Shown one piece after another: positions 22,256 to 26,551 of a stretch of 53,765 nt of DNA. The stretch's first letter is position 1; every line of letters begins with the position of its first letter. The stretch is from assembly GCA_902614835.1 (NCBI GenBank), contig CACMMU010000004.1, positions 1 through 53,765 of the forward strand. Direction: 5' to 3'. A program made the position numbers and the translations under genes. Origin of the DNA: an uncultured Pelagibacteraceae bacterium. Lineage in GTDB: Bacteria > Pseudomonadota > Alphaproteobacteria > Pelagibacterales > Pelagibacteraceae. The notes beneath the pieces were generated by a model. That model made no database searches and was not told the origin of the DNA. It saw only the letters and a program-made list of their open reading frames with translations.

Positions 22256-24346
22256 TTGGAATATTTGTCTTACATAATAATAGTTGCAATATTAGCTGTT
22301 GTTTATAGTTATTTTTTAAGCAAACAAATAATCTCATCAAATCCTGGAAATAAAAAAATGCAGGAAATTGCTGAGGCCATTCAAATAGGTGCAAAGGCAT
22401 ATCTTAACAGACAATATAAGACCATTGCGATTGTTGGAGTAATAGTTTTAATAATAATTAGTTATTTTTTTAGTTTATTAGTTGGTCTCGGTTATTTTAT
22501 AGGCGCCTTACTTTCCGGTGTTGCAGGTTATGTAGGAATGCTTATATCAGTTGAGGCTAACGTTAGAACTGCTGAAGCATCTAGAACTAGTCTTCAAAAA
22601 GGTTTAACAATGGCTTTTAAATCTGGTGCTATAACTGGTCTTTTAGTTGCTGGTTTAGCTCTATTAGCAATTTCAATTTATTATTGGGCTTTGTTATCTT
22701 TTAATGTTGATAGCAGAGAATTAATAAACGCATTGATAGCTTTAGGTTTTGGCGCTTCATTAATATCTATTTTTGCTAGACTCGGCGGCGGAATTTTTAC
22801 CAAAGGTGCTGATGTTGGAGCAGATTTAGTTGGTAAAGTTGAAGCGGGTATTCCAGAGGATGACCCAAGAAACCCAGCCGTTATAGCCGACAACGTTGGC
22901 GACAATGTTGGTGATTGCGCTGGTATGGCAGCAGATTTATTCGAAACATATGCGGTAACAATAGTTGCGACCATGGTTCTTGCCTCAATATTTTTTCCTA
23001 CCAACTCTAGTATGATGATTTATCCATTGGCTATTGGAGGTGGATGTATCATTGCATCAATTATAGGAACTTTCTTTGTTAAACTTGGAAAGAGTAAAAA
23101 TATTATGGGAGCTCTTTATAAAGGATTTATTGTAACAGCCATAATTTCTCTAATATTACTCTATCCAATTACATTAAATGTTATTGGTTTAACTAATACC
23201 TTTAATATTGGAGATAAAAATTTTACAGGTTTTGATTTATATTATTGTGGAATTATTGGTTTAGTAGTAACTGGTTTAATTATTTGGGTAACAGAATATT
23301 ATACTGGAACAAATTATAGACCAGTTAGAAGTGTTGCAAAGTCCTCAACTACTGGACATGGTACAAATGTTATTCAAGGTTTAGCAGTTTCAATGGAAGC
23401 TACAGCACTTCCTGCTTTGATTATCGTTGCTGGAATCATTACTACAAATGAATTGGCTGGATTGTTTGGAATTGCCATTGCTGTAACAGCGATGCTAGCT
23501 TTAACAGGAATGGTTGTCGCATTAGATGCTTATGGTCCTGTTACAGATAACGCTGGTGGAATAGCAGAAATGTCAAAACTACCAAAAAATGTTAGAAAAA
23601 CTACTGACGCTCTCGATGCTGTTGGTAATACAACAAAAGCTGTTACTAAAGGATATGCAATTGGTTCGGCGGGATTAGGTGCTTTAGTTCTGTTTGCTGC
23701 TTACACAGAAGATATTAAATTTTTTTCAACTGTTTCTGGTTCTTCATTAGAAGGTATCAATGTAAGTTTCGATTTGTCTAACCCATTTGTTGTAATAGGT
23801 TTATTGGTAGGTGGTATGCTTCCTTATTTATTTGGCTCAATGGGCATGCAGGCAGTCGGAAGAGCTGGGGGCGCTGTAGTTATAGAAGTTAGAAGACAAT
23901 TTAAAAAAATACCTGGAATTATGAAAGGAAAAAGAAAACCTGATTATGGAAGGTTGGTTGACTTATTAACAAAAGCTGCAATTAAAGAAATGATTATACC
24001 ATCATTATTACCAGTTTTATCTCCAATAGTTTTGTATTTAATAATTTTTTCAATTGGTGGTATGGAAGCTGCACTATCATCTGTTGGAGCAATGTTACTA
24101 GGAGTTATAGTAACCGGATTATTTGTTGCAATTTCAATGACCGCTGGTGGTGGTGCATGGGATAATGCAAAAAAATTTATTGAGGATGGAAATTATGGTG
24201 GAAAAGGATCTGAGTCCCATAAAGCTGCAGTTACTGGTGATACAGTTGGTGACCCCTACAAAGATACAGCAGGACCCGCAGTAAATCCTATGATAAAAAT
24301 AACAAATATTGTAGCGCTTTTATTATTAGCTGTAATTGCTCACTAA
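22256..24346 (+). CDS. hppA: membrane-bound proton-translocating pyrophosphatase (K+-independent type)
   Basis: HppA (about 696 aa) hydrolyses PPi to pump H+ across the inner membrane, through about 16 hydrophobic segments. The PPi/Mg2+ site motifs are present: [38 protein letters not shown] and [19 protein letters not shown]. The motif [10 protein letters not shown] carries the Lys that marks K+-independent enzymes. TTG at 22256 is chosen because AGGAG (22246-22250) lies 5 nt upstream. A start at 22211 would add 15 unlikely residues. It stands alone between nusB and convergent bamE, whose stop is 2 nt away. Confidence 0.95.
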
Positions 24347-24348
24347 AA

Positions 24349-24822
24349 TTATTTCCTATTAGCATTCATTTTTTCACGTATACTTGATAAAAAAGAGTCA
24401 ATAAAACTTCCTCTGGCAACATCGTTTGGAGTTACTTTTTTTGCAAATTCATAACTATTCATATCACTTTTGTTGTAAAGAATTTTTTCCTCAAGTATTC
24501 CATAACTGTTGAATCTAATTACAAGAACATTGTTGTTTAAAAGTATATTTCTACCCAATTTAGTCATTTTACCTCTAGTTTTTGTGCGTTCGATATATAA
24601 CCAAGTATTCTCATCTTTAATTGATTTTGTATGAGGTTGTCCCAAAATTCTAATTACATCATTAATGTTGGTTTCTTTAACTTTTAGCAGTTTGTCTCTA
24701 TTTTCTAGGTAAAAAATACCGTGACTTTTTATAACCTTATTTTTTTGACAATTTGTTAAGAATAACGATAAAAATATGATTAAAAAAAATAAAAAATAAT
24801 GTTTGCATCTTATAAAAAACAT
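24349..24822 (-). CDS. bamE: outer membrane assembly lipoprotein BamE
   Basis: A 157-aa lipoprotein of the SmpA/OmlA (BamE) family, an accessory part of the BAM complex that inserts beta-barrel proteins. A basic N-terminus and hydrophobic stretch end in a lipobox (LTNC, Cys at about residue 25). The mature part has the BamE pattern NINDVIRILGQPHTKS...WLYIERTKTRG and VLVIRFNSYGILEE. No alternative start exists downstream, so the ATG at 24822 seems fixed although it overlaps the divergent gene's first 24 bases. Confidence 0.88.
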   Translation of the reverse strand: MFFIRCKHYFLFFLIIFLSLFLTNCQKNKVIKSHGIFYLENRDKLLKVKETNINDVIRILGQPHTKSIKDENTWLYIERTKTRGKMTKLGRNILLNNNVLVIRFNSYGILEEKILYNKSDMNSYEFAKKVTPNDVARGSFIDSFLSSIREKMNANRK

Positions 24823-25296
24823 AATAATAAACTTTATAACAATTTAGTTAAATTATCACGTAATAAATTTTTTTATCAGGATCTGTGTCTTGAAGATAAA
24901 ATTGAAACAAGAATAACATTAATATTTTTTCATTTTGCTTTAATATTGCAAATTTGTAAGAACAAAGAAGAGAAAACACAGGATATATTTGATAATATAT
25001 TTCAAAATATTGAGTACAATTTAAGAGAAATTGGTCATGGTGATGTATTTGTTAACACGAAAATGAAAAAATTAACTAGAGTGTTTTATGACATACTTGT
25101 CAAATTAGATAATTTAGACACCAATTTATCCAAAGATATGGAAAAATTGATAAAAAATTATTTTTTTAATAAATCAAAAGATGAACGAATAAATATTGGC
25201 AAATTAACCAGTTATTTTGATAAATTTAAGGTTTTTTGTTTTGATTTAGATGTTAAAAACATGTTAAACGGTTCTTTTAACTTTTTATATAAATAA
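24799..25296 (+). CDS. ubiquinol-cytochrome c (bc1) assembly chaperone, CBP3/UQCC family
   Basis: A 165-aa protein of the Ubiq_cyt_C_chap family, related to mitochondrial CBP3, which helps assemble the cytochrome bc1 complex. The best-conserved stretch is [22 protein letters not shown] (about residues 73-94), the family core. The N-terminal [18 protein letters not shown] is also typical. The only plausible start is ATG 24799, and no Shine-Dalgarno-like sequence precedes it. Its order next to bamE and rpmF is alphaproteobacterial. The DUF177 (YceD) gene usually found before rpmF is missing. Confidence 0.82.
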
Positions 25297-25298
25297 AT

Positions 25299-25472
25299 AT
25301 GGCTGTACCAAAAAGAAAAACATCAGTTTCAAGAAGAAACAAAAGAAGATCACACCACAAGATTGTATCTTCAAATGTAGTTGAAGATAAAAAAACTGGT
25401 GAATATAGATTATCTCATCATATAGATTTAAAAACCGGTTTTTATAACGGAAAAAAAATCTTAGATAAGTAA
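25299..25472 (+). CDS. rpmF: 50S ribosomal protein L32
   Basis: A short gene encoding 57 aa. It starts [20 protein letters not shown], the L32 signature, and continues with [20 protein letters not shown], also typical. It begins 2 nt after the chaperone stop and precedes plsX by 23 nt, the rpmF-plsX order known across bacteria. The zinc cysteines of some L32 types are absent, as usual in Proteobacteria. Confidence 0.97.
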
Positions 25473-25495
25473 TTTTATTTAAACTAAAATTACAA

Positions 25496-26551
25496 ATGAA
25501 CATATCAGATAAAAAATTTACTATATCAATAGATTTAATGGGTGGTGATAATTCACCTGATAAAACTTTAGAAGGTGTAGATTTATTTATTAAAAGAAAT
25601 AAAGATAAAAAAGATTATTTTTTTTATCTTTTTGGTAATTCAGATCTTGTAATAGATAAAATTAAAAAACTTAAATATTTAAAGTCTAATTATAAACTAG
25701 TAGACACGAAAGTAGTTGTGTCTAATGATTTATCGCCTATGGCAGCTTTGAAAAAGGGTAAAGGATCAAGCATGTGGGAAAGCATACAATCTCAAATATC
25801 AAAAAATACAGATGTGACACTATCTGCAGGTAACACTGGAGTACTTTTTGTTATGTCAAAAATGATTTTAAAAATGTTAGAGGGAATTGATAGACCTGCT
25901 CTTGCTGGTTTGTGGCCAAGTGATAAGGGCATGAATTTAGTTTTAGATCTTGGCGCCAATGTTGAATGTAGCGAAAAAAATTTAATAGATTTCTCAGAAA
26001 TGGGATCCGCACTTTATCGTTCATTATTTCCAAATGAAGAAGTCAAAGTTTCTTTGCTAAATATTGGTTCTGAAGAATTGAAGGGTACCGAGGTTTTGAA
26101 AAATGCATATTCAAAACTTAAAACTTTAGAAAATATGGGAGACTTCAAATTTGTGGGATACGTAGAAGGAAATCAAATTACATCAAATATCTCTAATGTC
26201 ATAGTTACTGACGGCTTTACAGGAAATGTTGCATTAAAAACAGCTGAAGGAGTAGCCAATTTTTTAACAAAAAATTTAAAAAAATATTTAACAGAAAATT
26301 TATTTTCTAAACTATCTATTTTATTTTCATATTTTTCACTCAAAAAATTTAGAGATAAGCTTGATCCAAGAAAATATAATGGAGCAATATTTTTAGGTTT
26401 AAAAGGACCTGTTGTAAAAAGCCATGGCGCTACAGACTCACTTGGTTTTTCTTATTCTGTAGAGCTATGTTACAAAATTGCCAAAGGGAATCTGAATCAA
26501 AAAATTAAAAAAAACTTAGAAAATGTTAAAAATTTGAATGAAAAGGGATAA
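25496..26551 (+). CDS. plsX: phosphate acyltransferase PlsX
   Basis: PlsX (351 aa) converts acyl-ACP to acyl-phosphate for PlsY in phospholipid synthesis; it is a peripheral membrane enzyme. Motifs: ISIDLMGGDNSPDKTLEG, DVTLSAGNTGVLFVMSK, LDLGANVECSEKNLIDF, GFTGNVALKTAEG and FLGLKGPVVKSHGATD. It overlaps ihfA by 14 nt. In many alphaproteobacteria fabH comes between plsX and ihfA; here it is absent. Confidence 0.96.
   Translation: MNISDKKFTISIDLMGGDNSPDKTLEGVDLFIKRNKDKKDYFFYLFGNSDLVIDKIKKLKYLKSNYKLVDTKVVVSNDLSPMAALKKGKGSSMWESIQSQISKNTDVTLSAGNTGVLFVMSKMILKMLEGIDRPALAGLWPSDKGMNLVLDLGANVECSEKNLIDFSEMGSALYRSLFPNEEVKVSLLNIGSEELKGTEVLKNAYSKLKTLENMGDFKFVGYVEGNQITSNISNVIVTDGFTGNVALKTAEGVANFLTKNLKKYLTENLFSKLSILFSYFSLKKFRDKLDPRKYNGAIFLGLKGPVVKSHGATDSLGFSYSVELCYKIAKGNLNQKIKKNLENVKNLNEKG

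Follow-up and report, generated by a model that had tools for sequence, protein, structure and literature searches.

A conserved head-to-head coding overlap between bamE and a CBP3-like chaperone gene in SAR11 bacteria

Two housekeeping genes of a SAR11 genome, bamE and a gene for a CBP3-like ubiquinol-cytochrome c chaperone (hereafter CBP3), form a true head-to-head overlap. They are read from opposite strands, and the first 24 coding bases of each are also the first 24 of the other, in antisense (Table 1). The overlap is conserved at every genus locus that could be scored, goes together with reduced synonymous change, and is rare among divergent gene pairs. It was found in a stretch of 53,765 nucleotides from an uncultured Pelagibacteraceae bacterium (the window; GC content 0.29). 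An earlier note on this DNA had placed the bamE start at 24822 on the minus strand and the CBP3 start at 24799 on the plus strand, with 24 coding bases in common, and the open reading frames reproduced this exactly. We favour, with a probability of roughly 0.7, a history in which genome streamlining pressed an old divergent pair together until the promoter of each gene came to lie within its partner, and in which the pair was then locked in codon register.

Table 1. Positions in the window of the two genes, of their neighbours and of candidate elements.
Feature	Position	Strand	Evidence and remarks
bamE, outer-membrane assembly lipoprotein	24349..24822 (24822 -> 24349)	-	ATG, 157 aa; PF04355, ORF and translation
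Candidate CBP3 promoter inside bamE	24745..24774	+	TTGACA, 18 nt, TAAAAA; ends 24 nt before ATG; proposed from score peak in 24-, 27- and 0-nt groups
CBP3-like ubiquinol-cytochrome c chaperone gene	24799..25296	+	ATG, 165 aa; PF03981, ORF
Shared coding start, 24 nt, codon-aligned antisense	24799..24822	.	Each ATG is the partner's His8; same overlap in 25/25 genus loci; synonymous diversity reduced
Candidate bamE promoter inside CBP3	24831..24859	-	Two readings; weak, clade-specific
CBP3 codons 18-22, with almost no synonymous change in genus	24850..24864	.	About rank 59 of 3026 five-codon windows
rpmF (ribosomal protein L32), follows CBP3 in its run	25299..25472	+	PF01783, E=4.1e-22
plsX	25496..26551	+ (CBP3 strand)	PF02504; 3' of CBP3 in 79/80 named loci

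Both genes were identified by Pfam matches above the curated cut-offs: BamE (PF04355) with E=1.5e-6 and 28.3 bits against a cut-off of 23.2, and Ubiq_cyt_C_chap (PF03981) with E=6.3e-14 and 52.7 bits against 21.5. The N-terminus of the bamE product was judged by eye to be a lipoprotein signal peptide, with a lipobox ending in LTNC. Among the control genomes, PF03981 also scored over its cut-off in E. coli, an organism without a bc1 complex. A second, weak CBP3-like match (G006:C8:30897-31127, E=6e-4) contains three in-frame TAA codons, and is either a relic or a chance similarity. Relatives found by name are single-cell genomes and metagenome-assembled genomes of Pelagibacteraceae or Pelagibacterales. 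Within the overlap, CBP3 codon i lies opposite bamE codon 9-i, each ATG is read by the partner as CAT, and both proteins begin M......H throughout the genus.

Conservation of the overlap in related genomes had been suggested as a check, and it was borne out: every one of the 25 scored same-genus loci, the window included, has an ATG-to-ATG overlap of exactly 24 nt. Of the 30 other same-genus genomes, six (completeness 64-82%) gave no CBP3 match and were left unscored. An in-frame TTG lies 5' of the bamE ATG in three of these 25 loci. On the scale of the Pelagibacterales, 151 loci were reduced to 119 distinct resolved ones, 29 being duplicates and 3 having no usable CBP3 ATG. The ATG-ATG spacing falls between -12 and +33 nt in all 119; the genes overlap in 77, abut as CATATG in 23 and stand apart in 19. 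The overlap measures 24 nt in 37 loci and 27 nt in 12, and 67 of the 73 overlaps of at least 6 nt are multiples of three, as expected since indels must suit both frames. Four overlaps reach 33 nt; in these, bamE carries another ATG 6 or 9 nt further in. The histidine that corresponds to the partner's start shifts with overlap length (MFDFKYKKH for 27 nt, MFINKRH for 21 nt and MH for 6 nt). Any codon-aligned ATG overlap has this consequence, so the shift illustrates the overlap and is no proof of it. In a CBP3 tree of 118 rows, midpoint-rooted for drawing only, one fork of 62 rows (support 84/75) consists entirely of overlaps of at least 6 nt. In its sister fork of 34 rows the two starts abut (0 nt) in 23 rows, overlap in 10 and are separated in 1. 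Among the 22 rows of the second family, the genes are 1-12 nt apart in 18 and overlap by 2-13 nt in four.

Such an arrangement is exceptional in the genome itself. A sample of 293,765 bases yielded 34 divergent pairs in which both genes reach 100 aa, and of these bamE/CBP3 alone overlaps; the two tightest of the remaining pairs have gaps of 0 and 5 nt, and the median is 68 nt. Lowering the cut-off to 70 aa gave 39 divergent pairs and four more overlaps, each involving an ORF of 72-80 aa taken as spurious. The 80 named loci hold 196 divergent pairs; with the 77 bamE/CBP3 pairs set aside, a gap below 10 nt was found in 4 of the 119 others, many of which are probably orthologous neighbours and hence not independent, and two of these 4 lie between short ORFs (79/103 and 114/134 aa). 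Genome compaction alone was considered as a sufficient cause of the overlap and rejected, because a median of 68 nt still separates the remaining divergent pairs of this genome.

At L220 (11761-13854), in the same genome, an MFS transporter gene (minus strand, PF07690) and a 3-hydroxyisobutyrate-dehydrogenase-like gene (plus strand, PF03446/PF14833) have abutting starts, with a gap of 0. At L212 (7812-9322), the starts of an N-acetylmuramoyl-L-alanine amidase gene (Amidase_2, minus strand) and of the gene for the MlaA lipoprotein (plus strand) are 5 nt apart, which makes another outer-membrane lipoprotein gene in a nearly spacer-less divergent pair.

For other Alphaproteobacteria, 212 of 289 genomes gave a match. 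From these, 60 loci were taken (the 30 best-scoring and 30 chosen mostly for small genome size), and bamE and CBP3 are divergent in 56 of them. A script resolved 28 of these 56: the genes stand 47-230 nt apart in 27, and the remaining one has a spacing of -11. Near-zero spacing was nevertheless seen outside SAR11, at L207 (1 or -41), L208 (1), L209 (0) and L193 (-2 or -20), and also at L196, so that spacer collapse may have occurred more than once. The pair is nearly spacer-less in L193 and L196 at loci of 47% and 53% GC, indicating that AT-rich streamlining is not the sole setting.

The history that we favour would start from bamE and CBP3 as divergent neighbours with a spacer, as in most of the Alphaproteobacteria examined. 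Within the SAR11 order this spacer would have dwindled to roughly zero, and in that part of the family to which the window belongs, either coding sequence would have come to start within the other. The CBP3-rpmF-plsX run would then most likely be transcribed from inside bamE, and bamE from inside CBP3, with promoters that face each other, so that each polymerase would cross the promoter of the other gene. The overlap would be kept because it is codon-aligned: each start codon doubles as a histidine codon of the partner, and indels have to come in multiples of three. Given a CBP3 promoter at the proposed place and a bamE gene that starts within CBP3, the 5' ends of the two mRNAs would be complementary, over at least 24 coding bases and the CBP3 leader. 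It seems more likely that the cell tolerates the overlap and its lock-in than that it puts the antisense RNA to use.

We consider it unlikely that the overlap was selected as an excludon-like switch, in which a gene that is being transcribed keeps its partner repressed, so that outer-membrane assembly would be coupled to bc1 assembly and to the plsX run. Near-zero start spacing in all 119 resolved Pelagibacterales loci, and also at L207, L208, L209, L193 and L196, speaks for such a switch, as does the wider spacing kept by the other divergent pairs of the genome, and promoters placed face to face would make antisense 5' ends unavoidable. Against this, the length of the overlap drifts from 0 to 33 nt and gives way to gaps of 1-12 nt in the second family, meaning that no fixed RNA duplex is kept, and a signal of RNA structure is absent. 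A 6-bp terminal inverted repeat does occur in 16 of the 24 genus overlaps (ATGTTT..AAACAT in the window), but folding of the region from -20 to +45 is no stronger than that of shuffled sequences (mean z of -0.36 for CBP3 and 0.09 for bamE). An RNA hairpin around the starts was therefore discarded, and the repeat taken as a by-product of two ATGs with Phe and Lys codons. It is likewise doubtful that streamlining in SAR11 turned the spacer-less pair into an obligate mutual antisense device, with promoters set face to face within the coding sequences and the 5' end of each mRNA acting as antisense to the start codon of the other. If true, the bamE product and the bc1-chaperone/plsX run would be balanced without any regulator protein.

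Promoter positions bear directly on these readings. A scan with a plain promoter consensus returned 8 promoter-like sites where 8.8 were expected; since this was no excess, a composition-corrected scan over many genomes was used. The sigma70 score was averaged over 24 genus loci in 45 windows of 70 nt. On the CBP3 side it is highest in windows that begin 60-90 nt 5' of the CBP3 ATG, inside bamE, and the same windows rank 1-4 in the group with 27-nt overlaps (12 loci) and in the abutting group (22 loci). In the second family (18 loci) they rank 13-38, with no promoter-like peak. The candidate -35 element, TTGACA, falls on the Cys-Gln codons of the bamE lipobox, and part of the CBP3-side score may thus be driven by the protein. 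On the bamE side, windows 5' of the ATG take ranks 1-6 in the genus, but they fall to 11-36 for the loci with 27-nt overlaps and to 20-43 for the abutting ones. A single window (-90) comes first in the second family, and the best site varies among genomes. The candidate in the window can be read in two ways: either GATAAT at 24857-24852 would be the -10 element, 29 nt from the ATG, or GTGATA (24859-24854) would be the -35 and TAAAGT (24836-24831), 17 nt on and 8 nt from the ATG, the -10. Under the second reading the bamE mRNA would be near-leaderless and the RNA overlap shorter, while the coding overlap would stay. The earlier note had argued that each promoter must lie within the other gene. 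For CBP3 this is well supported by sequence, the peak recurring in three groups of loci but not in the second family; for bamE it is weakly suggested.

The stretch of CBP3 in which part of the bamE candidate lies hardly varies at synonymous sites in the genus. Codons 18-22 are most commonly GAA TTA TCA CGN AAT. All 24 of the 24 genus loci use CGN for Arg21, whereas CGN averages 9% over 119 conserved Arg columns, with 2 of these columns at 100%. The frozen TTATCACG occurs at 24 of 25 genus loci and at 57 of the 101 loci without the SRSK motif. The nine abutting loci that keep it have TATAAN or TATAGT at spacing 17, a hexamer that preferred Leu and Tyr codons alone could yield. A search of the window for TTATCACGNAAT gave one exact match, at 24853, and two when up to one mismatch was allowed, where 1.63 would be expected. 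A role of TTATCACG as a general regulatory element was rejected: it is missing in 44 of the 101 loci, and this loss points to a clade-level constraint that is not essential to the overlap arrangement.

CBP3 might also do without a promoter of its own, if read-through from the upstream pyrophosphatase gene ran antisense through bamE, in the manner of a non-contiguous operon. The pyrophosphatase gene does precede CBP3 on the same strand at 63 of the 80 named loci, its stop (24346) is two bases from that of bamE (24349), and no terminator-like site was found within 24200-25500. The gene is however missing in 16 of the 76 loci with room for it, where read-through is not possible, and the promoter-like peak stands just 5' of the CBP3 ATG in three groups. 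We therefore hold this explanation to be improbable.

As for the starts themselves, both look real from the sequence, and the conserved ATG spacing does not give the appearance of an error in calling them. The next in-frame ATG, GTG or TTG of CBP3 in the window is a TTG at codon 50, and no further one was met for bamE within the scanned stretch. The earlier claim that neither gene has another start nearby applies to CBP3 throughout, codons 2-15 being free of alternatives in 24 of 24 genus loci. For bamE it is true of 14 of the 24; in the other 10 an alternative start precedes the lipobox Cys, at differing positions.

Synonymous change in the shared codons, as observed over expected, is 0.13 for bamE and 0.53 for CBP3 when the expectation is drawn from the two genes, and 0.00 and 0.52 (5 columns each) when it is drawn from 20 neighbouring genes. 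The same codons give 0.59 to 1.07 in the five neighbour genes with at least 5 usable columns, and 0.00 to 1.34 in those with 1-4 columns, so that the CBP3 value alone is not striking. Raw identity does not set the overlap apart either, pairwise values of 0.823 and 0.844 in the next two 24-nt blocks of CBP3 being nearly as high as the 0.864 of the shared block. Low synonymous diversity was also observed in the 3' part of CBP3 (0.27 at codons 145-152, 0.46 at codons 161-168; about 25231-25293 in the window, just 5' of rpmF), and is thus not unique to the 5' end. Codons 145-168 might contain a signal for rpmF.

The absence of a Shine-Dalgarno sequence at both starts, reported earlier, is correct, yet ordinary: a match of at least 4 nt precedes 34 of 276 genes, versus 21 of 276 with shuffled leaders, in the 293,765 bases of the same genome (the window and L212-L223). 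Scarcity of Shine-Dalgarno sequences is a genome-wide trait. In one survey, divergent overlaps made up 1% (457) of the well-characterised overlaps, and all 75 that were longer than 60 bp had been misannotated (PMC2478687). That one of the two genes begins downstream at a non-canonical codon, leaving the coding overlap unused, would agree with that survey, with the missing Shine-Dalgarno sequences and with the alternative bamE starts of 10 genus loci, but is highly improbable given that both ATGs are kept in 25 of 25 loci, that synonymous change is lowered in both frames, that CBP3 codons 2-15 offer no alternative and that Shine-Dalgarno sequences are rare all over this genome.

Few head-to-head coding overlaps have good support, and the long ones found in annotations proved to be errors. 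The bamE/CBP3 pair offers a short overlap strongly backed by comparative data, in abundant ocean bacteria. Its natural series, from gaps of up to 12 nt through abutting CATATG to overlaps of 2 to 33 nt, allows the evolution of promoters and start codons to be followed where there is almost no non-coding DNA, and bears on whether unavoidable antisense transcription is used or just tolerated. A literature search, judged by titles and the beginnings of abstracts, found no paper on this overlap. Transcription starts of SAR11 have been mapped on HTCC7211 (PMC5069720). A link to envelope genes through a CenR site was considered; the CenR motif is TGA-N8-TGA, and the main text of the paper describing it contains neither bamE nor smpA (PMC9275681).

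Several known systems resemble the pair in part. The arrangement predicted for bamE/CBP3, with promoters directed against each other and the mRNAs complementary where they begin, has a parallel in the argECBH cluster of E. coli. There, divergent promoters stand face to face within a regulatory region that carries an operator; the bamE and CBP3 candidates lie instead in the coding sequence of the partner. Divergent excludons have been described, and share with our prediction the overlapping 5' ends of divergent mRNAs; the excludon concept requires antagonistic co-regulation, and there it is transcripts that overlap, with measured changes, whereas the predicted case of bamE/CBP3 is one of overlapping coding sequences (PMC10936155). 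A further counterpart is formed by the divergent overlapping pairs of prokaryotes, opposite-strand genes with common 5' coding bases; unlike the misannotated overlaps above 60 bp, that of bamE and CBP3 is short, exact through the genus and codon-aligned (PMC2478687). As a kind, divergent overlaps are known and rare, and bamE/CBP3 is an unusually well conserved and supported member.
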